From positions 1-31,302 of the IMG/VR virus record IMGVR_UViG_3300030104_000602: 31,302 nt of DNA, one strand, 5' to 3'. Origin of the DNA: a virus. The position numbers and the translations under genes are program-made. Positions 9,486 through 22,212 of the stretch are shown in pieces. The stretch's first letter is position 1; each line of letters starts with the position of its first letter. The notes under the pieces were generated by a model. The model did no database searches. It saw only the letters and a list, made by a program, of their open reading frames with translations, and was not told where the DNA came from.

Positions 9486-9672
9486 GCAATTTTTTAAGAA
9501 AGTTTATAATACCTGATTGTTCAGATGAAGGCACATGTACCATAAACATTTTACTATTTTCATTGTATTCGTTTATATAGCAATCTTCATTTATGTACAT
9601 AGTCTTACCATTGTCTAAACAAAAGTTATCCCAATCGTTAAATTGGGTTTGTGTTAAAATAAATGTTTCCAT
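9472..9672 (-). CDS. Hypothetical early protein (66 aa)
   Basis: Small protein starting METFILTQTQFNDWDN, with two cysteines, several aromatic residues and a lysine-rich end (FLKKLLDKK). No membrane segment or known motif is visible. It begins two bases after the TonB-like gene, so the two are probably co-transcribed. Its last codons carry the -35 box of the ssb promoter. Function unknown. Confidence 0.7.
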   Translation of the reverse strand: METFILTQTQFNDWDNFCLDNGKTMYINEDCYINEYNENSKMFMVHVPSSEQSGIINFLKKLLDKK

Positions 9673-9673
9673 T

Positions 9674-10345
9674 CTAGTCTCCTAATATTTTTATAGGTAT
9701 GTAACAATCTTTTACATTCCCTGTCAAACTAAATGAATCTAAATATGCCTTCATACCTCGTTTAAGTTTGTTAGGAATGGAAGGTTGATAGTTTACATTT
9801 ACTATTTCATTGTCTTGAACATCATAAGAAACTTTAAATGAATAGTCTCTTCTTAAAGAAACATCTTCTATATATGGTAACAATCTACTATGTGGGGTAG
9901 GGCAAGAAGCAGTAGTCGTTATCTTTACGACAGGCACTTCGACAGGTAATTCTACTACCTCTTGCTCTTTAGTTTCTGAGGGAGCAGGAGTGCTTTGCAA
10001 GTCCTGTGTTCGATTCTCCTTCTCTTCAACTAATTCTTCTTCAACTCTTTGTGGTTGAGTATCAAAAAACATTTGATAAAAGTTATCAGCAGAGTCTTGA
10101 GTCTCCTGTAATTGTCTTCTAACTTCATCTAACTCCATCGAATTATCTTCTATCTTCTGTTCTAAATATTCAAAGTCTGTTATATTACTTTGAACATATT
10201 GTGATATTTTTAATAAATCATTATTTAATTTATTAATTTTTTTAAATTGTTCGTCTTGATATGTTAGTTCTTCTACTACAGTAGACACAAACCAACCAAA
10301 AAACAATACATAAGCTATAATATAAATATAATCTTTACGTTCCAT
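9674..10345 (-). CDS. Membrane-anchored coiled-coil protein with TonB-like architecture
   Basis: A 223-residue protein. Residues 5-24 form one hydrophobic segment after a short basic start (MERKDY), so it is likely anchored in the inner membrane with the rest in the periplasm. Residues 30-95 are a coiled coil. A proline- and glutamate-rich linker follows (PAPSETKEQEVVELPVEVPVV). The last 75 residues (from ITTTASCP) end in a pattern like the TonB C-terminal domain: SFKVSYDVQDNEIVNVNY, then a helix (KLKRGMKAYLDSF) and a closing strand (CYIPIKIL). This suggests an envelope-spanning role, perhaps exclusion or modulation of outer-membrane transport, but alternatives such as an inner-membrane spanin-like protein remain possible. 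A promoter-like sequence lies upstream at 10402-10430. Confidence 0.6.
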   Translation of the reverse strand: MERKDYIYIIAYVLFFGWFVSTVVEELTYQDEQFKKINKLNNDLLKISQYVQSNITDFEYLEQKIEDNSMELDEVRRQLQETQDSADNFYQMFFDTQPQRVEEELVEEKENRTQDLQSTPAPSETKEQEVVELPVEVPVVKITTTASCPTPHSRLLPYIEDVSLRRDYSFKVSYDVQDNEIVNVNYQPSIPNKLKRGMKAYLDSFSLTGNVKDCYIPIKILGD

Positions 10346-10514
10346 ACTGTCTCCTTTTAATTCTTTTCAATTTTTTTCTCCAGTTTAATTTCCAAACCTC
10401 TATTGTACCATCTTTAAAGTGTACTGTCAAGACTCCATTGTTGGCATGTAGAGAAGTTATAGTATCTCTTGCTTGTTGCTCTGCATACATTTCATGTATG
10501 TCATACTCTGTCAT
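10335..10514 (-). CDS. Small hypothetical early protein with basic C-terminus (59 aa)
   Basis: ORF of 59 residues starting MTEYDIHEMY and ending with a strongly basic stretch (WRKKLKRIKRRQYGT). The middle (GVLTVHFKDGTIEVWKL) looks like a small beta hairpin. Its start shares one base with the stop of the upstream basic protein, and its end overlaps the TonB-like gene by 11 bases. The coupling argues that it is real. A near-consensus promoter lies within its coding sequence. No family recognised. Confidence 0.6.
   Translation of the reverse strand: MTEYDIHEMYAEQQARDTITSLHANNGVLTVHFKDGTIEVWKLNWRKKLKRIKRRQYGT
10402..10430 (-). promoter_or_regulatory. Near-consensus sigma70 promoter inside a small ORF
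   Basis: Minus strand: TTGACA (10430-10425), 17-base spacer, TACAAT (10407-10402). It lies within the 59-residue ORF and would drive the TonB-like gene, whose ATG at 10345 is about 50 bases past the expected start site. Being inside a coding region it could be chance, but the match and spacing are good. Confidence 0.6.
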
Positions 10515-10669
10515 TATTTACCTTGCCCCCTATATTTTTTATAAGTTTGTTTTTTTCTTTTAGGCATAGTCGCAGTAGCTACATTACCTCTACCTATGTG
10601 AGTTTTCTTTCCTCGTGAACCTGTAACAGGTTCGTGAGCTACTTGTCCTCTAGTTATTCTTAATGCCAT
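10514..10669 (-). CDS. Small basic hypothetical protein (51 aa)
   Basis: A 51-residue, glycine- and lysine-rich protein (MALRITRGQV start, then RGKKTHIGRG and a PKRKKQ cluster). It is rich in basic residues throughout and could bind nucleic acid. Its ATG lies 10 bases inside the upstream gene and its stop shares a base with the next start (TAATG), so it is translated as part of the early operon. Too short for the usual gene-calling limits. Function unknown. Confidence 0.6.
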   Translation of the reverse strand: MALRITRGQVAHEPVTGSRGKKTHIGRGNVATATMPKRKKQTYKKYRGQGK

Positions 10670-10995
10670 GCGTCAAATCCTCGTGGTTGAAAGTCTACTG
10701 CTTCTTGTACTTCTTCTAAAGTTAATGTTGGAGATATAGTTTCTCCACCACCATTGACTCCCAATATCAAACCATTACCTGCTAAAGTTTGACCGTAGTT
10801 ATCACCATGATAAGTAAAGAATAGTTGGTCTTCAACAAACAATCCTTCATCATCTACATAGATGCCATTTGTTTCATCAATTCTAACTACATCAAACGTA
10901 GCACAGTCAACTAAATCATAAATATTATGAAGAGTTCCGTCAATCTCTACTTCTTTTATTTCTTCGTTTTTTGTATCAATTAATATTGCTTTCAT
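10660..10995 (-). CDS. DUF3846-like early phage protein
   Basis: A 111-residue acidic protein. It starts MKAILIDTKNEEIKEVEIDG, continues with IYDLVDCATFDVVRI and an acidic turn, and ends with a segment like the DUF3846 pattern (GNGLILGVNGGGE). That family is common in phage early regions and has no assigned biochemical role that I can state. Assignment is by general pattern and is tentative. It follows the next early gene upstream by eight bases with a ribosome site (AAGGAG) before the ATG. Confidence 0.6.
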   Translation of the reverse strand: MKAILIDTKNEEIKEVEIDGTLHNIYDLVDCATFDVVRIDETNGIYVDDEGLFVEDQLFFTYHGDNYGQTLAGNGLILGVNGGGETISPTLTLEEVQEAVDFQPRGFDAWH

Positions 10996-11003
10996 ATTTC
11001 TCC

Positions 11004-11267
11004 TTATGTCATTGTTAATAATCTTTCTTTCTCAGCTACTGCCATGTACTCAATATCCTGTGAAGATACTGCCTCACGACAATGATAAGATAAAAACTGT
11101 ATGAGTAAATAAACTACATAAGTATCGTCTTTACTCCAACCTTCGTCTCCTTCAAACTTTTCCCAAATATAGTTAACACAGTCTTCCTTTAGGTCAGGTC
11201 TGTTTGGAAGTTGCCATTGCCTATCTACTTCTTCTTGTATGTAAGACATTAATTCTTCTTGATTCAT
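11004..11267 (-). CDS. Hypothetical early protein (87 aa)
   Basis: An acidic, helix-rich protein starting MNQEELMSYIQEEVDRQWQL. I chose the ATG at 11267 because AAGGAG lies seven bases before it and it overlaps the upstream stop by 4 bases (ATGA). A longer reading beginning at 11333 would lie within the upstream coiled-coil gene and has a basic, non-matching N-terminus. The middle is aromatic-rich (YVVYLLIQFLSYHC). No known domain. Confidence 0.65.
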   Translation of the reverse strand: MNQEELMSYIQEEVDRQWQLPNRPDLKEDCVNYIWEKFEGDEGWSKDDTYVVYLLIQFLSYHCREAVSSQDIEYMAVAEKERLLTMT

Positions 11268-11668
11268 TTCTCTAACTCCTTTATCATTTGTTTTAAGTTT
11301 TCTATTTCTTCTTCTAGTCTTCCTAATGTACAACTAATATCAGATTGAATATCAGCATTAAGTCTATCATATTCATCATTGATATGTTCCATAGCATAAC
11401 TATAGTTATCTTCCTGAGTTTGTTTAACATCATCTATATCATTTTGTAAAGAATATATTTCTCTTTCAACATCACGATTTATCAGGTCACGTACTCTATT
11501 AATATAAGATGTAGCTTCTTCAAAGTCAGCTTCACTTTTTTGTTTAACATCAGCTATATCATTATGAATACTCAGTATTGTATCTGAATATTCAATAGTA
11601 TCTTCAATATAACTTTCTAATCCACTTAGAACTACGTGTTCTTTTGCGGTCTTTTCGTATGCACTCAT
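11264..11668 (-). CDS. Coiled-coil protein with internal repeat (134 aa)
   Basis: Almost wholly alpha-helical and acidic. Two imperfect repeats of about 37 residues are visible: HNDIADVKQKSEADFEEA... and QNDIDDVKQTQEDNYSYA..., each followed by a helix ending in R/D-L-N. This points to an elongated, probably oligomeric rod. There is no membrane segment. It overlaps its neighbours by 4 bases on each side. Function unknown; roles in binding or titrating a host protein are possible but unsupported. Confidence 0.7.
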   Translation of the reverse strand: MSAYEKTAKEHVVLSGLESYIEDTIEYSDTILSIHNDIADVKQKSEADFEEATSYINRVRDLINRDVEREIYSLQNDIDDVKQTQEDNYSYAMEHINDEYDRLNADIQSDISCTLGRLEEEIENLKQMIKELEK

Positions 11669-12399
11669 GCTACTAACCTCACTTCTATTTTCTCGTTATC
11701 AATTACAAAACCTGAATAATCTTTCTTGGCTTTGCCCTTTGCTTTTAGTCCGACAACTACATTGTCTTTATCTAAAAATCTCATGTCGTGTTCATCACCG
11801 TCTATGACCTCTAAACCTTTGAAGGTTTTAGGTATATTTTTTCTGAACACTACTGCTTTGTTCTCTATTATTTTACTAAATAAACTAGCATACTTTTTGT
11901 TTGCTTCTGAGTAACTCCATGTCAAGTGATAATTATCTATGCCGTTTATCTTTCTTGTAGGTATCTTAGTGTAGTCATAAAACTGTATGTTAGGGAACAT
12001 ATCAAATACATTCTTACCATTTACTTCTTGATACTCCCATTGAATATCAGATGTACCATTCAATCTAAGACTAGGTTGCTTACCTAACTTATCACACTCC
12101 TTCTCAAACTTAGTAATGTCAGAGACTAATTGCCCCATAAAGTTATCATACTCGTTGAAATAAAGCAAGGTCTTTCGTATCCTAGCCTGTTGAATTGAAG
12201 TATAAACTCCACCTAATCCTGCAGTATTTAAGCAGGGTTTATCACACTTAGCAATCTTAGAATAAGGACAAGTAGTTTTCTCTCCGTCAGCTAAATCAGA
12301 GGGAGCAAGATACATAATTCTACTAAAGTATTGGTCTTGTATCTTGTTGCTCTTATCAATCTTAGGACTAGAGCTTGATAGTAATTTATATGTAGGCAT
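11665..12399 (-). CDS. GP88-like (gene product 88 family) early protein
   Basis: A 244-residue protein with the layout of the mycobacteriophage-type gene product 88 family. It has a cysteine-containing segment early on (TCPYSKIAKCDKPCLNTAG, cysteines near residues 44, 51 and 56), a run of Q/R-rich helix (QQARIRKTLLYF), then a beta core with SLRLNGTSDI and IQFYDYTKIP. The FYDYTK segment corresponds to the family's FYAYTK-like motif. The cysteines could bind a metal or cluster. The biochemical role of the family is unknown to me. The gene is the first after the structured gap at 12400-12505 and has a good ribosome site (CTGGAG). Confidence 0.7.
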   Translation of the reverse strand: MPTYKLLSSSSPKIDKSNKIQDQYFSRIMYLAPSDLADGEKTTCPYSKIAKCDKPCLNTAGLGGVYTSIQQARIRKTLLYFNEYDNFMGQLVSDITKFEKECDKLGKQPSLRLNGTSDIQWEYQEVNGKNVFDMFPNIQFYDYTKIPTRKINGIDNYHLTWSYSEANKKYASLFSKIIENKAVVFRKNIPKTFKGLEVIDGDEHDMRFLDKDNVVVGLKAKGKAKKDYSGFVIDNEKIEVRLVA

Positions 12400-12412
12400 A
12401 ATTTCTCCAGTT

Positions 12413-12502
12413 AAAAAGTGTGTAGCTAGTATTAGCTAGGTAGTTGCGTTGAGCCATATCCCTAGATTTTCTCACTTCGCACTCAAATACTAACTACACT
12501 TT
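12413..12502 (-). terminator. Long stem-loop in the gap before the GP88-like gene: terminator or leader RNA
   Basis: The gap between the 12506-12907 gene and the GP88-like gene is almost filled by one inverted repeat. The arms are 12486-12502 and 12415-12433: 17 bases pair, with two extra bases in one arm. A six-pair inner stem with a bulge (near 12478-12483 and 12443-12449) can form inside. On the minus strand the second arm ends in five T. It could end transcription of the early block or be a structured 5' leader. The loop is longer than in ordinary terminators, so the type is uncertain. Confidence 0.55.
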
Positions 12503-12505
12503 CAA

Positions 12506-12907
12506 TCAAATAGAATCCTCAGTTATTTCATTAATGATTTGAGGCAGTCTTTCTGTTGAACCTTTTTCAAGTAAAGCTATTGCAAGTTTATCAGTTATCT
12601 CTTGATTTAAAGAATAAGCATTATCAACAAAATCTAAATCATTTTTATAACCTAAAACTAAATTCACACGATTGTTATGGTTAAAAGATTTGATATGAGT
12701 CTTGAGTTCTTTCTGTAGTTTTCTATGTTTATTATAGATTTCTGACTCTTTTTCTTGTAGTTTTTTAATAGCTTCAATTTGTTTTTCAAAAGATAAATAA
12801 TCTCTTTTACTAACTAACTGTCTAGCTTTTATTTTTCTTTGTTTATTTACTTTTTCAGCTATAGTATTAACAATAGCATCTTGTTCAAATTTTCTTAATT
12901 GTTTCAT
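12506..12907 (-). CDS. Lysine-rich coiled-coil early protein (133 aa)
   Basis: Highly charged helical protein. It begins MKQLRKFEQDAIVNTIAEKV, contains a long K/E/Q-rich coiled coil through residue 70 (EAIKKLQEKESEIYNKHRKL), and ends with a more hydrophobic domain (LNQEITDKLAIALLEKG). It sits five bases after the 63-residue gene and is followed by the stem-loop at 12413-12502. No family recognised. Confidence 0.7.
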   Translation of the reverse strand: MKQLRKFEQDAIVNTIAEKVNKQRKIKARQLVSKRDYLSFEKQIEAIKKLQEKESEIYNKHRKLQKELKTHIKSFNHNNRVNLVLGYKNDLDFVDNAYSLNQEITDKLAIALLEKGSTERLPQIINEITEDSI

Positions 12908-12912
12908 AATAA

Positions 12913-13104
12913 TTACCTTATTGTTTGTATTTTATATTTAGTATATTCATAGTTTTGTCTATGAGGTGTTACTGATACTAATTTAAAACCTTTTTTATGA
13001 ATTTCAAATATATCTTCTCTATGAGAATAATTCTCTAAGTATCTGTATTTGTTATCTTTTAAGTATCTTTTAGCACTCTCTAGTGTATTGAATATCTTTA
13101 ACAT
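12913..13104 (-). CDS. Small basic early protein (63 aa)
   Basis: A 63-residue protein rich in K, Y and R (starts MLKIFNTLESAKRYLKDNKY). The pattern suggests a small helix plus beta fold. No Shine-Dalgarno precedes the ATG, whose context is AT-rich (AACAATTATG). It is the first gene after the promoter at 13137-13165, with a CA-rich leader of about 25 bases. Function unknown. Confidence 0.7.
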   Translation of the reverse strand: MLKIFNTLESAKRYLKDNKYRYLENYSHREDIFEIHKKGFKLVSVTPHRQNYEYTKYKIQTIR

Positions 13105-13136
13105 AATTGTTTAGTATTGTTGTTGAATGTTGGAGC

Positions 13137-13165
13137 ATGATACAGTACGACTTGCATTTTGTCAA
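13137..13165 (-). promoter_or_regulatory. Early sigma70 promoter with flanking inverted repeat
   Basis: Minus strand: TTGACA (13165-13160), 17-base spacer, TATCAT (13142-13137). An imperfect 12-bp inverted repeat overlaps it (CAGTACGACTTG near 13143-13154 and CAAGACGTACTG near 13168-13179, one mismatch), which places possible operator half-sites on both sides of the -35 box. The sequence 13180-13194 matches the AT-rich block seen upstream of two other early promoters. Confidence 0.8.
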
Positions 13166-13191
13166 CACAAGACGTACTGCATAGATAACTT

Positions 13192-13596
13192 TTATCCGAA
13201 TAAAGCTTTATTCATTTTTTGAAATAAGCTGGGTTCTTGGAAATCTCTATTTAAACGTAGAGTTTTGAAAGCATCTAAATACTCATTTTCTATCTTAAAG
13301 TTTTCAGGAACTTCAAGAACTTGCATAAGAGGATTACGTTTACCAATACCAACTTTTTGATAAAACCTAACATTTCTTTGAGGGTGTTTCTTCAAAACAT
13401 TTAAAGAAACTTTGCCGACATGAGTTGTATCAAAAGTATCTCCTGATGTAAATTCATATCTATCTTTAAGTTTTCTAACTCTAGCGATAGAAACATTTTC
13501 ATCATCACACAGTTTCCAAAAAGTTTGTACTTCTGACGGTGCATTAGTGATAGCAGTTGTGGTTGCTGAACCTTTATTTGTATATGTTATAGCCAT
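13192..13596 (-). CDS. Hypothetical early protein (134 aa)
   Basis: Begins with a low-complexity T/A-rich stretch (MAITYTNKGSATTTAITNAP), then a basic central region (VRKLKDRYEFTSGD, KKHPQRNVRFYQKVG) and a helical C-terminus. It resembles small phage proteins that bind nucleic acid or host targets, but I recognise no family. No Shine-Dalgarno is present; the start context is an A/T-only stretch. A weak promoter-like sequence (TTGACC near 13638) lies upstream. Confidence 0.7.
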   Translation of the reverse strand: MAITYTNKGSATTTAITNAPSEVQTFWKLCDDENVSIARVRKLKDRYEFTSGDTFDTTHVGKVSLNVLKKHPQRNVRFYQKVGIGKRNPLMQVLEVPENFKIENEYLDAFKTLRLNRDFQEPSLFQKMNKALFG

Positions 13597-13649
13597 AATT
13601 TTTATTATTTATAGTTAAATTAAACTTTAGTTAAGGTCAAAGTCATAAC

Positions 13650-13733
13650 CTATTCGTCAAACAAATCTAAACCTTCAAAGGTATCTTCATTGTTTTCTAA
13701 ATTCGTTAAAAATTCTTTTAAATCATCACTCAT
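13650..13733 (-). CDS. Very small acidic early peptide (27 aa)
   Basis: ORF for MSDDLKEFLTNLENNEDTFE plus seven further residues. It has a good ribosome site (TTTAGGAGA, spacing about six) and sits just after the promoter at 13775-13803 as its first gene. Eleven of 27 residues are acidic. Small acidic early peptides often act as decoys or inhibitors of host enzymes, but this is only inference. It is below normal gene-calling size. Confidence 0.55.
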   Translation of the reverse strand: MSDDLKEFLTNLENNEDTFEGLDLFDE

Positions 13734-13774
13734 ATCATTCTCCTAAATGTTTTGATGTTGCTTTGATGTTGGGA

Positions 13775-13803
13775 AGTATGGCATACGACTGATTGATTGT
13801 CAA
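13775..13803 (-). promoter_or_regulatory. Early sigma70 promoter with conserved upstream block
   Basis: Minus strand: TTGACA (13803-13798), 17-base spacer, CATACT (13780-13775). The eight bases just upstream of the -35 box (GTCTTGTG) are the same as at 13166-13173. The AT-rich block at 13818-13832 is shared with the promoters at 13137 and 14497. The leader is CA-rich. Confidence 0.75.
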
Positions 13804-13839
13804 CACAAGACGCACACCATAAATAAACTTTATATCTAA

Positions 13840-14181
13840 TTACTTCCATGATAAATGTTTAGAGTCAAGAAAATAATCACGAGGTTTTTTCGTAAACCCA
13901 TAATCTTTGTACCATTCTCTCTTTCGCTTTTGCCCTGAAACAAAACTATCTGACTCAGAGTCTCGTCTCCATTGAACAAAAGCTTTAGTTTTAAAGTTTT
14001 CAAGCGACAGTCTAGCTCTATGCGAACGACTACGCATAGTAACCCACTTTCGACCAATCTTGATTTGATACAGTCTATTACCAAATTTTCCCATAAAGAA
14101 AGTTTCAAAGTGGTCAGACATTTGAGGGTTTAAAAGTCTTTCTTGTCTTTCAGGTGAAATTTTTTCATATAGTTTTTCCAT
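13840..14181 (-). CDS. Basic hypothetical early protein (113 aa)
   Basis: Strongly basic protein (many R and K), starting MEKLYEKISPERQERLLNPQ, with aromatic residues in a probable beta core (NRLYQIKIGRKWVTMRSRSH) and a charged C-terminus. The ATG at 14181 has AAGGAG at good spacing. Another frame in the same stretch is rejected. It could bind nucleic acid. Ten bases separate it from the upstream gene. No family recognised. Confidence 0.7.
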   Translation of the reverse strand: MEKLYEKISPERQERLLNPQMSDHFETFFMGKFGNRLYQIKIGRKWVTMRSRSHRARLSLENFKTKAFVQWRRDSESDSFVSGQKRKREWYKDYGFTKKPRDYFLDSKHLSWK

Positions 14182-14191
14182 GTTTATCTCC

Positions 14192-14452
14192 TTAATGTTT
14201 TGTGATTAAACCTCTGAGAATGTACTCAACTTCGTCTAAATGTTCTACTGCTTTTTCTAGTTTGTCAAAGTCTATTGTAGGAAACTCTTTTCTAACTCTG
14301 TCGTCTCCTGTTTGACTAGCCAAAACTATCATGTCTAAAAACATCATCATCCCCCTAACATCTTTTGACATTGCTTCAAATGTTTCATTCTTCATTTGCT
14401 CAAAGGATTGTGGTGGATTCAGTTCTATTACGTTATCTTTTTTATCTTTCAT
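14192..14452 (-). CDS. First gene of the leftward early block (86 aa)
   Basis: An acidic, helical 86-residue protein starting MKDKKDNVIELNPPQS. It lies immediately after the divergent control region, about 38 bases past the expected start of the promoter at 14497-14525. It has no Shine-Dalgarno; the leader is CA-rich and ends AAATAATTATG. As the first early gene it is likely to be made first after infection. No known domain. Confidence 0.7.
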   Translation of the reverse strand: MKDKKDNVIELNPPQSFEQMKNETFEAMSKDVRGMMMFLDMIVLASQTGDDRVRKEFPTIDFDKLEKAVEHLDEVEYILRGLITKH

Positions 14453-14496
14453 AATTATTTGTTGTTGTACTGTGGCACAATTGCCAAAGCCACTCC

Positions 14497-14525
14497 ATCA
14501 AAACATGGTGATGATTTTTTGTCAA
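14497..14525 (-). promoter_or_regulatory. Leftward early promoter
   Basis: Minus strand: TTGACA (14525-14520), 17-base spacer, TTTGAT (14502-14497). The -10 is weak, but the -35 is perfect and the AT-rich block upstream (14542-14556) is shared with the promoters at 13137 and 13775. The 38-base leader can form a small hairpin (GTGGC/GCCAC). Confidence 0.65.
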
Positions 14526-14566
14526 GTTTGAAATCGCAACGCATAAATAAACTTTAGTACATAAAG

Positions 14567-14575
14567 ATTATAGCA
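14567..14575 (-). promoter_or_regulatory. Extended -10 promoter candidate
   Basis: Minus strand reads TGC then TATAAT (14575-14567), an extended -10 element. No good -35 box is visible at the usual distance. It would add a second leftward start upstream of the first early gene. Confidence 0.4.
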
Positions 14576-14703
14576 TAGTTATTATATAAAAACTATATAA
14601 ACTCCATACTCCTGTAAGCTTTTGAAGGGTGTTAAAACGTGTAGACACATAAGTACTTACGCATAAGTATCTATGTAAGCCTTACGTAAAGACTAAAAAA
14701 TAC

Positions 14704-14801
14704 TAATGGCAAAGTTACCCTAAAGGGTAAAATTTTTATTAGAAAAAAAAGCTTGACGGGGTTTCGGCAAAAAGTTACCTTGTAATGGCAAATTTCGGCA
14801 A
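14704..14801. repeat. Iteron-like short direct repeats
   Basis: TAATGGCAAA occurs at 14704-14713 and 14783-14792. TTTCGGCAA occurs at 14762-14770 and 14793-14801. GTTACC occurs near 14714 and 14774. Repeats in this spacing just outside the divergent early/late boundary could be protein-binding sites for a replication initiator or regulator. Confidence 0.5.
14753..14781 (+). promoter_or_regulatory. Weak rightward promoter candidate for the first hairpin ORF
   Basis: TTGACG (14753-14758), a 17-base spacer, then TACCTT (14776-14781). The -35 is good and the -10 poor. It is placed about 40 bases before the ATG at 14823. Confidence 0.4.
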
Positions 14802-14822
14802 CGGTGCTGAAATGTTTAACGA

Positions 14823-15140
14823 ATGACCATAGGTCAGGAGGTTGTTATCAAAACAACAACAAAAAATGGTGCTAAAGCACCCCAAAAAACCAGTAAGTTT
14901 AACGAAGAAGCTAGAGCTTCTTATCCTCAAGTAATGAAAATTGCTATGCATTTTTCAAAGCTTACTAAATGTCCGAAGGACATCAAGTTCGGAACTTTGA
15001 GAGGTCATTTTTTAGCGAAGCTAAATGATGCAAAGAAACCTTTGACTCAAGGTCAAGTTTCTAAACTTCTTACGCTGAAAGCTGTTCCAGCTTCGGATTT
15101 GAAGTCCATGAGAGCTTATAAAGATTTTCAATCTTCATAA
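14823..15140 (+). CDS. Hypothetical protein encoded in the hairpin array (105 aa)
   Basis: A lysine-rich 105-residue protein (starts MTIGQEVVIK; basic with K at many positions, ending YKDFQSS). No known domain. Its coding DNA is built from consecutive short inverted repeats (14824 to 15142), so it is unclear whether selection acts on the protein, the RNA or the DNA. The stop codon lies within a 13-bp hairpin (15114-15142). A perfect AGGAGG sits inside the reading frame at 14837-14842, with no standard in-frame start just after it, while the ATG at 14823 has a poor ribosome site. A terminator follows at 15154. The ORF is open and continuous, so I keep it with moderate confidence. Confidence 0.55.
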   Translation: MTIGQEVVIKTTTKNGAKAPQKTSKFNEEARASYPQVMKIAMHFSKLTKCPKDIKFGTLRGHFLAKLNDAKKPLTQGQVSKLLTLKAVPASDLKSMRAYKDFQSS

Positions 15141-15153
15141 GCAGTTTGGGATT

Positions 15154-15176
15154 AGGGAGCTTTATGCTCCCTTTTT
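15154..15176 (+). terminator. Terminator after the first hairpin ORF
   Basis: Stem AGGGAGC / GCTCCCT with loop TTTAT (15154-15172), followed by T's. Nearly the same hairpin is used at 15501, so the two ORFs look like paired units. Confidence 0.8.
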
Positions 15177-15181
15177 CCCTA

Positions 15182-15199
15182 AATTTTTATATAAAAATT
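15182..15199. repeat. Perfect 18-bp palindrome upstream of the second hairpin ORF
   Basis: AATTTTTATATAAAAATT is its own reverse complement. It ends 11 bases before the ATG at 15211. It could be an operator, a cruciform site or simply AT-rich sequence; the perfect symmetry and position are noted. Confidence 0.7.
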
Positions 15200-15203
15200 G
15201 GAG

Positions 15204-15225
15204 AAAATTTATGAGTATAAATTTT
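15204..15225 (+). promoter_or_regulatory. Hairpin enclosing the start codon of the second hairpin ORF
   Basis: Arms 15204-15212 and 15217-15225 pair perfectly (9 bp) around the loop GAGT. The ATG occupies 15211-15213, and the ribosome site (GGAG) is just upstream. The fold would hide the start codon, so translation may depend on unfolding. Confidence 0.6.
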
Positions 15226-15483
15226 GAAGTATCTAAACACTCTTTCTTAGATGGTTTACATCTAAAAACAGAGTTTGAAAATGGATATGAAGTATCCATT
15301 GTTCCTAGTCAAATCCCTTTCGGGATTAATGATTTTCAAGGTAACCCTGAAAGGGTTGAACTAGGTATTTTCTTTCAAGGTACTATGATTAGTACCTTTA
15401 GTGATGAGGATTTAACTTACTTGACTCCGTCAAGAGCTATTGAAATCTGCAAAGAGGTCGAAGACCTCAATCCAAATATCTAA
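15211..15483 (+). CDS. Hypothetical protein encoded in the hairpin array (90 aa)
   Basis: A 90-residue protein starting MSINFEVSKHSFLDGL, with a plausible globular composition: alternating beta strands (YEVSIVPSQIPFGI, RVELGIFFQG) and a C-terminal helix (SRAIEICKEVEDLN). It has a good ribosome site (GGAGAAAATTT then ATG) and its own terminator at 15501. These are better signs of translation than for its neighbour. Its DNA is nevertheless a run of perfect hairpins (start codon in one, stop codon in another). No family recognised. Confidence 0.65.
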   Translation: MSINFEVSKHSFLDGLHLKTEFENGYEVSIVPSQIPFGINDFQGNPERVELGIFFQGTMISTFSDEDLTYLTPSRAIEICKEVEDLNPNI

Positions 15484-15500
15484 CTAGATATTTGAAATTT

Positions 15501-15527
15501 AAGGGAGCTTTATAGCTCCCTTTTTTT
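15501..15527 (+). terminator. Terminator after the second hairpin ORF
   Basis: Stem AAGGGAGCT / AGCTCCCTT with loop TTAT (15501-15522), followed by further T's to 15527. It resembles the terminator at 15154 closely. Confidence 0.85.
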
Positions 15528-16083
15528 GTCTGAATTCTTTTAGGCCTATTTTATTCTAAAATTGGCTCAAAAGAATTGACCAACAACAACCAGGTATCTT
15601 TCAGATACTTGGTTAACAATCAAATTTAAAGCTATTTAGAGAGCCGTAGAGCCATAAATACTATCGAACCCTAGCTATCCCCCCAATCAGAGTTAAAAAC
15701 TCTGTAGAGCCTTGATTTACCTATTGAATCTGTAAAGTCTTTAGAGACTTTAAAGTTATAATAAACTTACATAAATTCTCTTAGAATTTTGTAAACTTCA
15801 TATTCTTTTAAAACTCTAGAGAGTTTTAGGAGCTATCCAAATAATTAGAGATGAGAATTAAGTCTGTAAGACTTGTCAGATATCTCAATTCTTTAAAACT
15901 CTTTAGAGTTTCAAGGGGTAGGCAGGTGACCACCCCCCTCTCCCCCTATATATGCACAATCCTATACATTTTTAGAAGTTTTGAAGTGTTAAGTAGAAAA
16001 TAGCCCCGGACATCAAAGAGCTTTAAAGAGCTTTATAGTAGGGTAGGAATATATAGATGTACAACCCCTACCGGACAAGCCTC

Positions 16084-16112
16084 AGTATACAGTTGTATTC
16101 CAAGTTTGTCAA
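16084..16112 (-). promoter_or_regulatory. Leftward consensus-like promoter facing the hairpin array
   Basis: Minus strand: TTGACA (16112-16107), 17-base spacer, TATACT (16089-16084). The transcript would enter the gene-free hairpin region antisense to the two ORFs. Its -35 box is one arm of the inverted repeat at 16105-16136. Confidence 0.8.
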
Positions 16113-16136
16113 GCATTATTTAAACTACTTGACAAA
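16105..16136. repeat. Inverted repeat linking two divergent -35 boxes
   Basis: TTTGTCAAG (16105-16113) and CTTGACAAA (16128-16136) are perfect reverse complements across 14 bases. Each arm contains the -35 box of one promoter. A regulator binding here would affect both directions. Confidence 0.75.
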
Positions 16137-16157
16137 TTCATACTCATACCCTATAAT
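16129..16157 (+). promoter_or_regulatory. Consensus sigma70 promoter for late genes (TerS)
   Basis: TTGACA (16129-16134), 17-base spacer, TATAAT (16152-16157): an exact consensus. The expected start of transcription is about 16163-16165, at or next to the ATG of TerS, so the mRNA may have no leader. Confidence 0.88.
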
Positions 16158-16164
16158 AAAACAA

Positions 16165-16584
16165 ATGAATCTTCCAGCAACTAAAAGAAAATTAACAGAA
16201 AAGCAACAAGCTTTCTTAGATAACCTTATAGAAACAAAAGGAGATTTAAAGCTTTCTGCTGAACTTGCAGGCTACGCAGGAAATCACTATCAAATTATGC
16301 AAAGCCTTAAACAAGAAATAGTCGAGTTAGCCTCAACAGTCCTCGCAAGGGAAGCACCTAAAGCAGCTTTTAAGCTTGTTGAAGTCATGGAGAGCGATAC
16401 AGCCATGCCACAAGCTAATGTAAAGTTACAAGCAGCACAAACTATATTAGATAGAGTTGGTGTTTCTAAAACAGAACGAATGCAAATAGACCACAATGTT
16501 TCGGGTGGTATTTTTATATTACCTGAAAAAGAAACAATAGATATTAAAGCAGAGGATACTCAATATGAAGATATTCCTAACTGA
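16165..16584 (+). CDS. terS: Terminase small subunit
   Basis: DNA-recognition subunit of the packaging motor, 139 residues from the chosen start (MNLPATKRKLTEKQQAFLDN). The N-terminal LTEKQQAFLDNLIETKGDLKLSAELAGY stretch is a helix-turn-helix typical of phage small terminases. A helical oligomerisation region and an acidic C-terminus (IDIKAEDTQYEDIPN) follow. An in-frame ATG at 16057 would add 36 residues but lies upstream of a perfect promoter whose start site is at 16163-16165, so the shorter form is preferred. It has no ribosome site; leaderless translation is likely. TerL is encoded about 1.6 kb downstream, with small genes and an IscU gene between. Confidence 0.82.
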   Translation: MNLPATKRKLTEKQQAFLDNLIETKGDLKLSAELAGYAGNHYQIMQSLKQEIVELASTVLAREAPKAAFKLVEVMESDTAMPQANVKLQAAQTILDRVGVSKTERMQIDHNVSGGIFILPEKETIDIKAEDTQYEDIPN

Positions 16585-16762
16585 GTATACTTTAGAAAAT
16601 AAAGTTTACGCAGGTATTAATATATTTGCTTCTAGTGATATAGAAGCAGAACTTATTGCAGAAGAACAAGGAGTAACTATTGTTGGAGAAATTACAGGTG
16701 TTAGATTTAAACCTGAGTTTTATGACTATTTAGAATCCGAAACAAAAAGAGTATTACACTAA
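16565..16762 (+). CDS. Hypothetical protein after TerS (65 aa)
   Basis: An acidic 65-residue protein starting MKIFLTEYTLENKVYAGINI. The body looks like a small alpha/beta fold. It overlaps TerS by 20 bases; a GAGG sits about ten bases before its ATG. Its stop overlaps the next start by one base. Such small proteins beside TerS are common in marine podoviruses and have no assigned role that I can name. Confidence 0.7.
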   Translation: MKIFLTEYTLENKVYAGINIFASSDIEAELIAEEQGVTIVGEITGVRFKPEFYDYLESETKRVLH

Positions 16763-16944
16763 TGGCAACAAAAAAGAAATCAACAGTAAACAAAGCAGGG
16801 AACTACACTAAGCCTACTATGCGAAAGAATCTTTTTAATAAGATTAAAGCAGGAAGCAAAGGGGGTAACGCAGGTCAATGGTCTGCACGTAAAGCTCAGA
16901 TGCTTGCCAAACAATATAAAGCTAAAGGTGGAGGCTATAAGTAA
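16762..16944 (+). CDS. Small basic phage protein with GGxxGQWSARKAQ motif (60 aa)
   Basis: Basic 60-residue protein. The C-terminal block AGSKGGNAGQWSARKAQMLAKQY followed by KAKGGGYK is a pattern I recognise from small proteins found again and again in phage structural regions, without a known biochemical role. It probably binds DNA or enters the head with it, but that is inferred from charge only. Both ends overlap neighbouring genes by one base (TAATG). Confidence 0.75.
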   Translation: MATKKKSTVNKAGNYTKPTMRKNLFNKIKAGSKGGNAGQWSARKAQMLAKQYKAKGGGYK

Positions 16945-17186
16945 TGGCACTTAAGAAGTCTCAAAAGTCTTTAAAGCGTTGGACAAAGCAAAAGTGGAGA
17001 ACAGCAAGCGGTAAAAAATCCTCTGAGACAGGAGAAGTCTATGCACCTGCAGCTACGATAAAGAAACTTAAATCAACATCAGCAGGTAAAAGTAAATTAG
17101 CAGCAGCTAATAAAAAGAAACGAGCAGCAACTGCAAAAGGTAAACAACATGCTCGTCATGGATTACACAAAGGAAAGAAAAGATAA
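16944..17186 (+). CDS. Small lysine-rich phage protein (80 aa)
   Basis: Very basic protein with a recognisable phage block: LKRWTKQKWRTASGKKSSETGEVY near the N-terminus, then a K/A/R-rich tail ending HARHGLHKGKKR. Similar small proteins (I link them to DUF5872-like sequences from memory) accompany the preceding type. No enzymatic motif. It may be a DNA-binding or packaged protein. One-base overlaps at both ends indicate coupled translation. Confidence 0.75.
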   Translation: MALKKSQKSLKRWTKQKWRTASGKKSSETGEVYAPAATIKKLKSTSAGKSKLAAANKKKRAATAKGKQHARHGLHKGKKR

Positions 17187-17473
17187 TGTCAGAAAAAGAT
17201 AGCAGATTAAAAAGAGCAGGTGTTAGTGGTTTTAACAAACCTAAAAGAACTCCTAGTCATCCTAAGAAGTCACACATAGTTGTGGCTAAAGAAGGCTCAA
17301 AGATTAAAACCATAAGATTTGGACAGAAAGGTGCAAAGACTGCAGGTAAACCTAAAGCAGGTGAGTCTGATAGAATGAAAGCAAAACGTAAAAGCTTTAA
17401 AGCTAGACACGGAAAGAACATAGCTAAAGGAAAAATGTCAGCAGCTTATTGGGCTGATAAAGTAAAATGGTAA
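17186..17473 (+). CDS. Small basic phage protein, DUF6321-like (95 aa)
   Basis: Basic 95-residue protein containing SRLKRAGVSGFNKPKRTPSH, an IKTIRFGQKGAKTAG segment and a C-terminal MSAAYWADKVKW. This arrangement is widespread in phages and is, to my memory, the DUF6321 pattern; its function is unknown. It is the third in a row of overlapping small basic genes and overlaps the following membrane peptide by seven bases. Confidence 0.78.
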   Translation: MSEKDSRLKRAGVSGFNKPKRTPSHPKKSHIVVAKEGSKIKTIRFGQKGAKTAGKPKAGESDRMKAKRKSFKARHGKNIAKGKMSAAYWADKVKW

Positions 17474-17616
17474 CACCAGAAGAATGGCAAGAGAAAGAAT
17501 TAAATTGGTTGGCAAAGAAACAATTAAGTTTTGTAGCTATTATGTCAGTTATTCAAGTTAGTATGTTAGCACTCATGATGTTGTTCATGTATATTAATTC
17601 AATTATATTTAAGTAA
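17467..17616 (+). CDS. Small single-span membrane protein (49 aa)
   Basis: A 49-residue ORF starting MVTPEEWQEKELNWLAKKQL, then one hydrophobic segment from about residue 21 to 47. The N-terminus is amphipathic. It overlaps the preceding basic gene by seven bases and ends one base before the next start. Its size suits a small holin or a membrane anchor, but there is no endolysin nearby, so lysis is not supported. It is too short for usual gene-calling limits. Confidence 0.6.
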   Translation: MVTPEEWQEKELNWLAKKQLSFVAIMSVIQVSMLALMMLFMYINSIIFK

Positions 17617-17617
17617 A

Positions 17618-17761
17618 ATGCCACAGTTAGGTTCAGACAAACAACCAGTTAAATTCAAACCTTTAGCTAAACAAAAAGCTAGATTATCCATGAGAGGTAA
17701 AGGTATTCGTGACCAAAAACAATTTGAAGAAAACTGGGATAAAATATTTAATAAGAAGTAA
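17618..17761 (+). CDS. Small basic hypothetical protein (47 aa)
   Basis: A 47-residue protein starting MPQLGSDKQPVKFKPLAKQK and ending DKIFNKK. It is basic with an RLSMRGKGIRDQKQFEENWDK segment like short DNA- or RNA-binding motifs. It lies one base after the membrane peptide and overlaps the IscU start by one base. No family recognised. Confidence 0.6.
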   Translation: MPQLGSDKQPVKFKPLAKQKARLSMRGKGIRDQKQFEENWDKIFNKK

Positions 17762-18174
17762 TGGCTTATTCTCAACAAGTCATTGATAGGTTCAATAGTG
17801 TTTTATCTGAACCTGAAAAACATTCAGTAGGTCGATTCGACCCTCAAGACCCAAACGTAGCTACAGGAATGACAGGAGCACCTGCCTGTGGTGATGTTAT
17901 GCGTTTACAGTTAAAACTAAACGGAGATACAATAGAAGAAGTTAAGTTTAAAACATATGGTTGTGGTTCTGCTATAGCTTCCTCTACTATGTTTGTAGAG
18001 ATGTTAAAAGGAAAAACAATAGAAGAAGCTAAAGAAATAAAAGATAAAGATATAGCACAAGCTTTAGAGTTACCTCCAATTAAGTTACATTGTTCTGTTC
18101 TTGCAGAAGAAAGTATACATAAAGCTATAGAAGACTGGGAAACTAAAACAAAACATAGGAAACACAATCAATGA
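17761..18174 (+). CDS. iscU: IscU-type iron-sulfur cluster assembly scaffold
   Basis: Scaffold on which a 2Fe-2S cluster is built from cysteine-desulfurase sulfur and iron before transfer to apo-proteins. The 137-residue protein matches cellular IscU end to end. It has C43 in GAPACGDVM with D45 two residues on, C68 in KTYGCGSAIASS, and H110-C111 in LHCSVLAEES. The LPPIK motif (104-108) corresponds to the LPPVK site through which HscA/DnaK-type chaperones act. All three cluster cysteines, the Asp and the chaperone site are kept, so it is probably functional. The basic tail (KTKHRKHNQ) is not typical. It overlaps TerL by 4 bases and the preceding gene by one, so it belongs to the late operon and is unlikely to be a stray host fragment. 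Confidence 0.93.
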   Translation: MAYSQQVIDRFNSVLSEPEKHSVGRFDPQDPNVATGMTGAPACGDVMRLQLKLNGDTIEEVKFKTYGCGSAIASSTMFVEMLKGKTIEEAKEIKDKDIAQALELPPIKLHCSVLAEESIHKAIEDWETKTKHRKHNQ

Positions 18175-19979
18175 TTCCAAAGGATTATATAAAAAAGAAA
18201 AGTAAAACTATTCCTTTTGGATATGAAGTAAGTGAGTTTGAAGGTTGGTTACGACCTATTCAAGCTGAGTTATTTGTTTTAAACAAATATATTAAAAAAG
18301 TTAAAGAAGAAGCATTATCGTTACGTGATGCTGCAGAGTTAATTTCTACAGAAACTAATAGAAGTATAAGTCATGTTGGTTTGTCAAAGCTAGTAAATAA
18401 AAATAAAGGTGGTAGACCCAAAGGTTCTAAGTCTAGTTATAACTATTCACGAGCACAAAAAAGAAAACAATTAGTTGCTAGAGAAGAAAAGAAAGTTAAA
18501 AAAGAAAAAGAAAAACTTAAATTAAAAGAAGAACGACTTAAAAAAGAAAAAGAAGTTATAACAAAAGTAACAGAAAAAACTAAAGATAAAGTTGTTGTTA
18601 CATCAGACTTTGAACAAGTGGCTCCGTCTGTTCAAGAAATAATAAAAGATAGTAATATAATCTTTCATCCTAACGAAGGACCGCAAACTAAATTTTTAGC
18701 AGCCGATGAAAAGGATGTTCTTTATGGAGGAGCAGCAGGTGGTGGTAAAAGTTATGCTATGCTTATTGACCCACTACGTTATGCACATAAGAAAGCTCAT
18801 AGAGGTTTAATACTTAGAAGGTCTATGCCAGAGTTACGAGAACTCATAGACAAATCCAGAGAATTATATCCACAAGCATTTCCGGGTTGTAAGTTTAAAG
18901 AAGTAGAAAAAGTATGGAACTTTCCAAGTGGAGCTAAGATAGAGTTTGGTTTTTTAGAAAGAGATGCTGATGTATATAGATACCAAGGACAAGCATATAG
19001 TTGGATAGGGTTTGATGAAATAACTCATTTACCCACAGATTTTGGTTGGAACTATCTAGCCTCTCGTTTAAGAACTACAGACCCTGAAATAAAAACTTAC
19101 TTACGCTGTACTGCAAACCCCGGTGGTGTTGGAGCACATTGGGTAAAAAACAGATACATTAATCCTTCTGAGCCTGACAAAAGTTTTTTAGGAGTAGACG
19201 GTTTAACACGAAAGTTTATTCCTGCAAAATTAACTGATAATCCTTATTTATCTGAAGATGGTATGTATGAGCAAATGCTTAATTCATTACCACCTGTACA
19301 ACGCAAACAGTTACTAGAAGGTAATTGGGATGTAAATGAAGGAGCAGCTTTTGTAGAATTTGACCCTGATGTACATGTTGTACCTCCTTTTCAAATTCCT
19401 GTAGCATGGGAAAGACTAAAAGGTATTGACTATGGGTATGCATCTGAGTCATGTTGTTTGTGGGGAACAATAGATATGACGGATGGAACACTCATCATTT
19501 ACCGTGAATTGTATCGAAAAGGCTTGACAGGTCAGGAATTAGGCTCTATAATAACAGAAATGGAAAGGGAAGACCCTTTTTCTGTTAATGGTGTATTAGA
19601 TACAGCAGCATGGGCAAATACAGGAACAACTGGTCCAACTGTTGGAGAAGCTTTATTAAGAGCAGGACATAAACTAAGAAGAGCAGATAAGAATCGTATT
19701 CAAGGTAAAATCCAAATACACGAATATTTAAAAGTAAAAGATAACGGAAGACCTAAGTTACAGATATTTAATACATGTCCAAACTTAATAAGAGAAATAC
19801 AAAGTATTCCTTTATCAAAAACAAATCCAGAAGATGTGGATACACATGCTTCGGACCACGCATATGATGCTCTAAGATATATGATTATGAGTAGACCAAG
19901 AGTGGCAAATACATTTGACAGATTAAGACAATTTAAAAAAGAAATGTACTCTCCTTCTGATTCCACTTTTGGATATTAA
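18171..19979 (+). CDS. terL: Terminase large subunit with unusual N-terminal extension
   Basis: ATPase-nuclease that drives DNA into the prohead and cuts it. It is 602 residues long. Walker A is at about 183-192 (GGAAGGGKS), Walker B with the catalytic acid at about 280-283 (IGFDEITH), and the RNase H-like nuclease begins with GIDYGYA near 417, continues with VLDTAAW, and ends with DHAYDALRY. Ahead of the motor domain, residues 1-160 hold a possible helix-turn-helix (SLRDAAELISTETNRSISHV), a GGRPKGSK basic patch and a long K/E-rich coiled coil. This extra part is not in typical TerL and may help bind DNA or the small subunit. Confidence 0.95.
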   Translation: MIPKDYIKKKSKTIPFGYEVSEFEGWLRPIQAELFVLNKYIKKVKEEALSLRDAAELISTETNRSISHVGLSKLVNKNKGGRPKGSKSSYNYSRAQKRKQLVAREEKKVKKEKEKLKLKEERLKKEKEVITKVTEKTKDKVVVTSDFEQVAPSVQEIIKDSNIIFHPNEGPQTKFLAADEKDVLYGGAAGGGKSYAMLIDPLRYAHKKAHRGLILRRSMPELRELIDKSRELYPQAFPGCKFKEVEKVWNFPSGAKIEFGFLERDADVYRYQGQAYSWIGFDEITHLPTDFGWNYLASRLRTTDPEIKTYLRCTANPGGVGAHWVKNRYINPSEPDKSFLGVDGLTRKFIPAKLTDNPYLSEDGMYEQMLNSLPPVQRKQLLEGNWDVNEGAAFVEFDPDVHVVPPFQIPVAWERLKGIDYGYASESCCLWGTIDMTDGTLIIYRELYRKGLTGQELGSIITEMEREDPFSVNGVLDTAAWANTGTTGPTVGEALLRAGHKLRRADKNRIQGKIQIHEYLKVKDNGRPKLQIFNTCPNLIREIQSIPLSKTNPEDVDTHASDHAYDALRYMIMSRPRVANTFDRLRQFKKEMYSPSDSTFGY

Positions 19980-19982
19980 TAT

Positions 19983-22154
19983 ATGGCAGGACAAGACAAT
20001 ACATTTTTAAATGCTAATAACATCTACGAAGAAGTAGAAGGTGAAGCAGGAAAAAATTTAACTTTAGAACAAGACCAACAACAAAACTTAGTTGGTATTA
20101 TTAAAGGTAGATTTGCTTTAGCAGAAGATGCTAGAACTGGTGATGAAAAAAGATGGTTCACAGCATACGAAAATTACAGAGGATTATATAATAACTCTGT
20201 TAAATTTAGAGAATCAGAAAAATCTAGAATATTTGTAAAGATTACAAAAACAAAAGTACTAGCTGCTTTTGGTCAATTAGTTGATGTTATATTCGGAACA
20301 GGTAAGTTTCCTTTAAGCATTTCAGAAACAAAACTTCCAGAAGGAGAACAAGGACAAGCATATCTAGATATGAACAATCCTTCTCCTTCATTAGAAATAC
20401 CTGATAATATAGGTAATCGAATGGAAGACCTTCCACAAGAACAAATGTTGGATGATGTTGGGTATGAAGGTGATGGTAGAGTTTTAAAACCCGGAGCTAC
20501 ACTAAGTAATGGGTTGTTTGAAGATGGTGTTGATAAAATAGCCGAACCATTTTTAAAAGAAGGATATTCACCATTACCTGAAGTACCTGAAATTAATCCT
20601 GCTCAAAAAGCTTCTCGAAGAATGGAGAAGTTAATTCACGACCAAATAGATGAATCAAATGGTTCATCTGAAATTAGAAATGCTTTACTAGAAGCTTCAT
20701 TACTAGGAACAGGAATTGTCAAAGGTCCATTTAATTTTAATAAAGTTTTAAATAATTGGACAACAGATGCAGACGGAAACAGAACATATACTCCATCAGA
20801 AGTTAGAGTACCTCGTATAGAGTTTGTAAGTTGTTGGGATTTTTATCCTGACCCTGCTGCAACTAATATTGATGAATGTGAATTCATAGTACATAGACAT
20901 AAAATGAATCGTAGTCAATTAAGGCAACTTAGAAGTATGCCTTACTTTGATGAAGAAGCAATAAGAGAATGTCTACAAGAAGGACCCAACTATGTAGAAA
21001 AACCTTATGAGTCTAGATTAAAAGATGATTATGAAACTGATACATCTTATAATCCTAACTTTGAAGTTTTAGAATACTGGGGTATTATGGATGCTGAGTA
21101 TGCTAGAGAAGTAGGTATTGAACTTCCTGATACAATAGATGATTTAGACGAAGTACAAATTAATGCATGGATATGTGGAGACTCTTTATTAAGAGCAGTA
21201 ATAAATCCATTTACTCCTGCACGTATACCTTATCATTCTTTCCCATACGAAAGAAATCCTTATAGTTTCTTTGGTATTGGTGTAGCTGAGAACATGGATG
21301 ATTCTCAACAAATAATGAATGGACATGCTAGAATGGCTATAGATAATTTAGCACTAGCAGGTTCTCTTGTTTTTGATGTTGATGAGTCTGCTTTAGTAGG
21401 TGGACAATCAATGGAGGTGTATCCCGGAAAAGTGTTTAGACGACAAGCAGGGATGCCGGGTCAGTCAATTTATGGATTAAAGTTTCCTAATACTGCACCT
21501 GAAAACATGATGATGTTTGATAGGTTTAGACAGTTAGCAGACGAACAAACAGGAATACCAAGTTACTCTCATGGTCAAACAGGAGTACAAAGTATGACTA
21601 GAACAGCATCAGGCATGTCAATGTTGTTAGGTGCATCAAGTTTAAACATTAAAACAGTTGTTAAAAATCTTGACGACTTTTTATTAAAACCTTTAGGAGA
21701 ATCATACTTCCAATGGAATATGCAATTCTTTGAAGGTGGTCTTGATGTAATGGGAGATTTAGAAGTTAAAGCTACAGGAACAAATAGCTTGATGCAAAAA
21801 GAAGTAAGAAGTCAAAGACTTACTATGTTTTTACAAACTGCACAAAGTCCTGCTATTGCTCCGTTTGTTAAGATTTCTAAACTTGTAAGTGAACTAGCCT
21901 ACAGCTTAGATTTAGACCCTGATGAAATACTCAATGACCCTGAAGAAGCTGCAATGATGGCACAGATAATAGGAATGCAAAATGCTAACCAAGCAAACAG
22001 CCAAGAAGTTGAATCCGTTGGTGAACAACCTCCAATGGGAAGCCCTGACGGAGCACCTACAGAACCTCAAGACCTCGGAGTTACAGGTACTGGTGGTGGC
22101 AACATCGGAACAGGAAATGTTCCGGTCGCAGGGGAGAGTGAATTCTCTGGATAA
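19983..22154 (+). CDS. Portal protein
   Basis: Dodecameric channel through which DNA enters and leaves the capsid. The 723-residue protein has the features of podovirus portals: a charged N-terminal region (RFALAEDARTGDEKRWFTAY), a central portion with NPYSFFGIGVAENMDDSQQIMN, and a C-terminal low-complexity tail rich in G, P and E. Its position directly between TerL and the scaffold/coat block supports the call. It is close in length to the P22 portal (725). The tail beyond residue 650 may form the barrel or be disordered. It begins three bases after TerL. Confidence 0.9.
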   Translation: MAGQDNTFLNANNIYEEVEGEAGKNLTLEQDQQQNLVGIIKGRFALAEDARTGDEKRWFTAYENYRGLYNNSVKFRESEKSRIFVKITKTKVLAAFGQLVDVIFGTGKFPLSISETKLPEGEQGQAYLDMNNPSPSLEIPDNIGNRMEDLPQEQMLDDVGYEGDGRVLKPGATLSNGLFEDGVDKIAEPFLKEGYSPLPEVPEINPAQKASRRMEKLIHDQIDESNGSSEIRNALLEASLLGTGIVKGPFNFNKVLNNWTTDADGNRTYTPSEVRVPRIEFVSCWDFYPDPAATNIDECEFIVHRHKMNRSQLRQLRSMPYFDEEAIRECLQEGPNYVEKPYESRLKDDYETDTSYNPNFEVLEYWGIMDAEYAREVGIELPDTIDDLDEVQINAWICGDSLLRAVINPFTPARIPYHSFPYERNPYSFFGIGVAENMDDSQQIMNGHARMAIDNLALAGSLVFDVDESALVGGQSMEVYPGKVFRRQAGMPGQSIYGLKFPNTAPENMMMFDRFRQLADEQTGIPSYSHGQTGVQSMTRTASGMSMLLGASSLNIKTVVKNLDDFLLKPLGESYFQWNMQFFEGGLDVMGDLEVKATGTNSLMQKEVRSQRLTMFLQTAQSPAIAPFVKISKLVSELAYSLDLDPDEILNDPEEAAMMAQIIGMQNANQANSQEVESVGEQPPMGSPDGAPTEPQDLGVTGTGGGNIGTGNVPVAGESEFSG

Positions 22155-22212
22155 ACTTATTACATTAAGAGAACAAGTTAAAGAAGCTTTACTAAGAAAC
22201 GAAGAAATATGA
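22138..22212 (+). CDS. Possible tiny peptide overlapping the portal gene end (24 aa)
   Basis: A short reading frame from a GTG (22138) that follows GGGGAG at good spacing encodes about 24 residues (NSLDKLITLREQVKEALLRN plus three more), a clean amphipathic helix. It overlaps the portal gene by 17 bases and the next gene by 4. The overlap pattern resembles that of its real neighbours. A longer reading of the same frame lies inside portal sequence and is less likely. Confidence 0.4.
   Translation: MNSLDKLITLREQVKEALLRNEEI

Follow-up and report, generated by a model that had tools for sequence, protein, structure and literature searches.

A conserved pair of divergent sigma-70-type promoters and a non-coding core upstream of the terminase genes of HMO-2011-related pelagiphages, a candidate transcription-activated replication origin

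The DNA analysed here, referred to below as the window, is a virus record from IMG/VR, 31,302 bases long. Its TerL protein shares 63-67% identity with those of the pelagiphages HTVC115P, HTVC103P and HTVC104P and 49% with that of HTVC033P, these four being the nearest isolates, and 47% with that of HMO-2011. A T7-like replication set is encoded on the minus strand and comprises a family A DNA polymerase (5211-6947), a helicase-primase (6959-8629) and a gp2.5-like protein (8965-9417), and a late block with terS and terL lies on the plus strand; no tRNA genes were found in the window. Judged by its related TerL and its T7-like replication genes, the phage is HMO-2011-related. HMO-2011-type marine phages similarly carry two oppositely directed gene blocks, as described in the available part of a paper on them (PMC9038755), and neither "promoter" nor "intergenic" occurs in that part of the text, where the junction between the blocks is not described.

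Upstream of the late block, near the point where the two gene blocks diverge, two promoters of the sigma-70 type face away from each other. The rightward promoter P_R (16129-16157, plus strand; TTGACA-17-TATAAT) matches the consensus at 12 of 12 positions, and the leftward promoter P_L (16112-16084, minus strand; TTGACA-17-TATACT) at 11 of 12, with the two -35 boxes 16 nt apart and an RNA start of P_L to be expected near 16077. P_R immediately precedes terS and the late block, and P_L faces a gene-free stretch (500-700 nt) followed by small convergent ORFs; the pair would thereby form the control point at which the early and the late half of the genome meet. A first-pass annotation of this DNA had described two divergent promoters whose -35 boxes form a perfect inverted repeat, the right one serving the late genes and the left one reading into a gene-free hairpin region, and at the level of sequence it was accurate: its positions, boxes and spacers are correct, the repeat is present (TTTGTCAAG at 16105-16113 and CTTGACAAA at 16128-16136), and P_L leads into the hairpin region, which also holds conserved sequence. 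By a strict rule (TTGACA exact, at most one mismatch in the -10 box) the window contains seven promoters and one divergent pair within 40 nt, against a mean of 1.01 single promoters and not one divergent pair in 300 dinucleotide shuffles. A looser scan of 8000-24000 gave promoter-like sites without excess (64 against 58.1 +/- 9.2), and the excess over chance is one of near-perfect promoters only.

Relatives were collected through terS matches in IMG/VR, of which the best 80 of 184 were taken (best-segment TerS identity to the window 68-94%). Two of them, L027 and L072, have no upstream DNA and were left out of the promoter count; the other 78 and the window form a set of 79 sequences, which are mutually related, so that they do not amount to 79 independent cases. 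P_R has no mismatch in any of the 79, with a spacer of 16 nt in 33, 17 in 45 and 18 in one. P_L has no mismatch in 57 and one mismatch in 22, its spacer being 17 nt throughout. The first-pass annotation had named conservation of the -35 boxes in relatives as a check, and both promoters are present in all 79. The isolates HTVC115P, HTVC103P, HTVC104P and HTVC033P have a similar pair upstream of terS, with at most one mismatch per promoter. At the level of sequence, the sigma-70 promoter pair is confirmed as real and conserved.

On the right side, terS, encoding the terminase small subunit (16168-16584, plus strand; PHROG 2538, E 6.5e-6), starts at 16168 in the query; the -10 box of P_R is followed, after 7 nt, by a first in-frame ATG at 16165. 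This distance is 6 nt in 16 sequences, 7 in 36, 8 in two, 9 in 24 and 11 in one, accounting for 79 of 79, and it lies within 6-9 nt in 78. Transcription is expected to begin about 5-9 nt after a -10 box, and a normal RNA start from P_R would fall on or beside the terS ATG. Because the ATG follows the -10 box by 6-11 nt in every sequence, the simplest reading is that the terS mRNA is probably leaderless and strictly kept so, the distance being observed and the RNA start predicted. Another perfect TTGACA-17-TATAAT lies inside terL (19524-19552), with both boxes exact in 33 of 37 distinct terL sequences; the Leu codon at this site is TTG in 33 of the 37, and TTG makes up 9% of the Leu codons in nine window genes. 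The site is probably a real promoter for portal and the genes downstream of it. Between terS and terL there is also a gene for a NifU/IscU-like Fe-S scaffold (17761-18174; Pfam NifU_N, E 4.6e-39; PHROG 8429), matched in many, not all, of the relatives.

On the left side, P_L is followed by a core of about 80 nt, read on the minus strand, whose elements keep the same order and a nearly fixed spacing: the boxes CTTAACA and AAATGTA separated by an A run (15965-15993), a TATATA box (15947-15953), a GC-rich tract that is G-rich on the leftward strand in the window (15927-15946) and a CCTGCC box (15921-15926). These elements were seen in alignments of the loci, in which the tract changes fast between near relatives. 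Next comes the gene-free hairpin and repeat array (15525-15920, minus strand), with phased repeats of about 10 bp, bounded by a rightward hairpin terminator (15501-15522, plus strand) that belongs to a short ORF at 15211-15483 with a weak match to phrog_4074, of unknown function. A second short ORF (14823-15140) has no family match; both are on the plus strand, convergent with P_L, and both are recognisable in the window's own clade only, except 14823-15140 in L073 (45%). No ORF of at least 50 aa is found on the leftward strand in the window's unit. Among 44 loci picked as representatives with enough upstream DNA, rightward terminators lie 502-713 nt from P_L in 28 and leftward terminators 494-659 nt from it in seven. 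In the window, no strong leftward terminator lies in the 1,700 nt beyond P_L, so leftward read-through into 14823-15483, which would give the antisense RNA to both short ORFs proposed in the first-pass annotation, is possible. In HTVC115P (L085, near the record end) a terminator-like hairpin with a U run was seen by eye about 95 nt after P_L, and it might yield a short RNA or attenuate leftward transcription.

The core occurs in 76 of the 79 loci, 67-205 nt downstream of P_L and always in the same orientation; in the other three (L025, L046 and L062) the contig ends there. A profile search found it just once per locus in 116 of 124 loci. Viral contigs were also scanned independently with the core pattern only, terS being unused, and of the 44 stretches obtained, 15 are contigs that the terS set does not include. 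Each of these 15 has a leftward promoter 77-195 nt before the core, and 13 also have the divergent promoter, by a regular expression allowing a spacer of 17 only. In the isolates the profile found nothing significant, the best hit being HTVC115P at the expected place (E 0.4); core-like stretches in HMO-2011, CRP-1 and CRP-9 were recognised by pattern and eye and are not significant by profile, and the pattern was not found in CRP-2, -3, -207, -212, -235, -603 and -738. The set genome_contigs gave one match to the core pattern, close to where a gammaproteobacterial MAG contig of 68.7 kb ends (L135, 111-156, minus strand), beside bacterial-looking genes; it is possibly a prophage remnant, another phage or a chimera.

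The variability of the GC-rich tract was measured in 73 pairs of non-identical loci with leaders at least 95% alike. Calculated as a crude string ratio, likeness averages 0.98 for the leader, 0.96 for the core, 0.80 for the tract and 0.70 for the 106 nt that follow it. These following nucleotides thus vary more on average than the tract does, and the tract alone diverges between conserved flanks in some pairs only, as in L065 and L067 (0.97, 0.97, 0.53 and 0.94, respectively). The change can be complete, even a flip between G-rich and C-rich, in phages with nearly identical flanks (L056-L060, L063-L071). Such a fast-changing tract would be a useful marker in itself. An R-loop formed by a G-rich transcript was considered and is weakened by the several lineages that carry a C-rich tract. 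A T7-type promoter in the core (TATATAGGG) was considered and set aside, as no phage RNA polymerase is annotated in the HTVC115P, HTVC103P and HMO-2011 stretches that were read.

Some features of this region are origin-like. The AT-rich TATATA core places a potential melting stretch next to a promoter. Perfect DnaA boxes number 17 in the 54.6 kb formed by the 800 nt left of P_L (0.311/kb) and 9 in 539 kb elsewhere in the same loci (0.017/kb), making the left region 18-fold denser. After dereplication there are 16 boxes in 41.2 kb, in seven of 54 regions, and the DnaA box ranks 4 among the 1,680 nonamers that share its composition (mean 0.58). In the stretch equivalent to 15525-15920 they occur in some relatives only, and L061, L071 and L077 each have two like-oriented boxes spaced 11 bp apart; there are none in the window's unit, in the 15 extra core contigs or in the four isolates' units examined. 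AAA/TTT and CTT show a periodicity of 10-10.5 bp in the mean over 32 lineages. The GC skew changes sign around the promoter pair, which says little, as it coincides with the change of gene orientation, and in HTVC115P, HTVC103P and HTVC104P the second skew switch falls where genes converge near 17 kb rather than opposite the putative origin.

The best explanation of the locus, held tentatively and at somewhat less than an even chance, is that it functions as a transcription-activated replication origin of an HMO-2011-related pelagiphage, served by the host RNA polymerase. This reading is preferred because it accounts for the fixed order of promoter, core and repeats, for the DnaA boxes and for the T7-like replisome, and it explains more of the features than a long structured RNA does. 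The host sigma-70 RNA polymerase would occupy either promoter of the back-to-back pair, but not both together. From P_R it would begin transcribing the late operon at or almost at the start codon of terS and give the leaderless terS mRNA, and from P_L it would make an untranslated transcript of a few hundred nucleotides, running through the AT-rich core, the GC-rich tract and the phased repeats. Transcription from P_L would then open the origin, or prime it, for the helicase-primase, family A polymerase and gp2.5-like protein, and host DnaA may help at its boxes in some lineages. Counting against the origin reading, perfect DnaA boxes are confined to seven of the 54 dereplicated regions, and the HTVC115P hairpin precedes the core-like stretch. 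Additionally, no leftward promoter was detected in HMO-2011 and CRP-1, which have a core-like stretch by pattern and eye.

Two well-known phage origins offer partial parallels. The primary origin of T7 has a T7-type promoter just upstream of an AT-rich stretch, and the iterons of lambda lie inside gene O and are bound by the O protein. The present locus is similar to the T7 origin in its promoter before an AT-rich stretch and in the accompanying T7-like helicase-primase, family A polymerase and gp2.5-like protein, but it differs from it in having a host sigma-70 promoter, a GC-rich tract and, in some lineages, DnaA boxes. The T7 polymerase, together with the helicase, can adopt an existing RNA transcript as its primer, according to the available part of PMC5997990. 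In the case of lambda, pR transcription passing through the origin stimulates initiation, with the convergent pO tuning it, as given in the available part of PMC3985674; here, too, a promoter for host RNA polymerase points toward an origin-like repeat region with a second promoter nearby, whereas the stretch is gene-free, no initiator gene was identified and the partner promoter is divergent, not convergent as in lambda.

Alternatively, P_L could be the promoter of a discrete structured non-coding RNA of about 500-700 nt that acts in trans, as the GOLLD and ROOL RNAs may, and ends at a hairpin terminator, a proposal that deserves consideration and is nevertheless unlikely. Hairpin terminators bound the region in many loci, and in seven close relatives including the window the leftward consensus fold keeps 96.3% of its pair cells, and 16 of its pairs have changed at both positions where shuffles give 8.5 +/- 1.8, these structures being predicted from the same alignments, which favours them. 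The rightward fold, however, covaries nearly as well (15 pairs against 8.5 +/- 1.7), so that the strand is not fixed. Among 16 lineages picked as representatives with enough upstream DNA, single-sequence folds of 480 nt have a leftward z of -2 or below in 12, and the leftward fold is stronger than the rightward one in 12, but four of ten control folds also have z of -2 or below, with controls reaching -3.2, and in L022, L051 and L068 folding is no stronger than in shuffles. By duplex energies, a helix around the core passes one permutation test (z -3.8, 66 sequences), but it fails a stricter anchored test (29 lineages, z 0.8-1.5). Of the long structured RNA suggested by the first-pass annotation, the hairpins have held up through covariation in the close clade, on both strands, and their generality across lineages has not; selection on hairpins in the window's own clade, acting on them as RNA or as DNA, is credible from the alignments.

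No known RNA family was found by Rfam scans of the window and relatives. At the gathering threshold Rfam has no matches in the window, and none in the unit of 12 relatives, which also speaks against the structured RNA. A gene-free phage stretch of 500-700 nt with many hairpins recalls the GOLLD and ROOL phage RNAs as the available part of PMC12286853 describes them, from which the locus differs in having no Rfam match, no tRNA genes near it and a structure supported in the close clade only; both GOLLD and ROOL are absent from a permissive Rfam scan of 14450-16200. The best hit of the permissive scan, to an Enterococcus sRNA (E 1.7e-4, plus strand, 15463-15583, covering the terminator), scores 30 bits against a gathering threshold of 100 and was taken as chance.

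A reading of P_L as an early-gene promoter with a long untranslated leader, in which the core and repeats would serve leader regulation, is rather improbable. It draws on HTVC115P and HTVC103P/104P, in which the annotated genes beside P_L share its orientation and follow it at about 500-750 nt, but in the window and its relatives small convergent ORFs with rightward terminators intervene (28 of 44 loci), and the DnaA boxes are left unexplained. Furthermore, 17 of the 19 loci picked as representatives with enough upstream DNA have TTGACA promoters left of P_L that belong to the early genes themselves, which counts against such a leader and in favour of the origin reading.

Very little probability is given to the core and GC-rich tract being the packaging start (pac or cos) of the neighbouring terminase. 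Their constant position upstream of terS in the terS set, the phased A-tracts and a GC-rich, fast-changing tract between fixed boxes, which could be a cohesive-end sequence, would suit this function; yet most contigs continue through the tract, and the 53 contigs that end within 5 kb, with ends gathering in the unit (18 within 594 nt), show no evident peak at it. Isolate records start at the first early gene and not at the tract, and in HMO-2011 and CRP-1 the core-like stretch is several kb from the terminase genes.

Highly improbable is the idea, put forward in the first-pass annotation, that a single regulator, of phage or host origin, acts on the inverted repeat to control both directions: the -35 boxes do form a perfect repeat and the promoters always occur together, but the gap between the arms takes ten lengths among the 79 sequences (9, 15, 16, 23, 25-28, 36 and 37 nt), and the arm context is that of ordinary promoters, so a shared operator was rejected. 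A C precedes TTGACA in 75 of 79 sequences at P_R, in 72 of 79 at P_L and in 42 of 49 solitary perfect promoters of these phages, most of the latter, from the fetched loci, being one site inside terL. Because the gap varies and the leading C is about equally common in solitary promoters, the repeat amounts to two good -35 boxes placed back to back in an ordinary promoter context. The gap itself (16113-16128, 16 nt in the window) is AT-rich and may be a shared UP-element region; mean AT content is 0.778 over the 79 gaps, against 0.658 for the window. RNA polymerase reaches upstream of the -35 box, and two polymerases should not fit on so short a gap. With gaps of at most 37 nt, mutual exclusion of the two RNA polymerases is likelier than a shared operator, and it would need no regulator.

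A wider form of the origin reading is more doubtful than the origin reading itself and distinctly improbable as a whole. It would see in the locus an undescribed origin-control module of abundant SAR11 phages, in which a strong host promoter drives a non-coding RNA through the box array into a diversifying GC tract that may serve as a specificity tag (for example in incompatibility or superinfection), and a mutually exclusive divergent promoter provides the leaderless terminase mRNA, which would couple the onset of replication and of packaging within about 80 bp.

The phages that infect SAR11 and its neighbours rank with the most abundant marine viruses, and no description of how their replication starts or of their early-to-late switch was found in the literature searched. 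No description of this junction was found in the literature on HMO-2011-type phages and pelagiphages, subscription journals being mostly outside the search. In the available parts of the respective sources, a pelagiphage transcriptome paper covers HTVC022P and HTVC027P (PMC12753301), and promoters are described for the unrelated pelagiphage Skadi-1 (PMC10504331). The locus offers coordinates for such studies, namely those of a divergent promoter pair that is universal in the set, of a terminase gene that is probably leaderless and of a non-coding core that is conserved, and the same kind of pair in HTVC115P, HTVC103P, HTVC104P and HTVC033P makes it experimentally accessible. Two further elements were noted on related phage contigs, a tRNA gene on L010 (1557-1627, minus strand) and a glutamine riboswitch aptamer on L078 (6741-6793, 57 bits).
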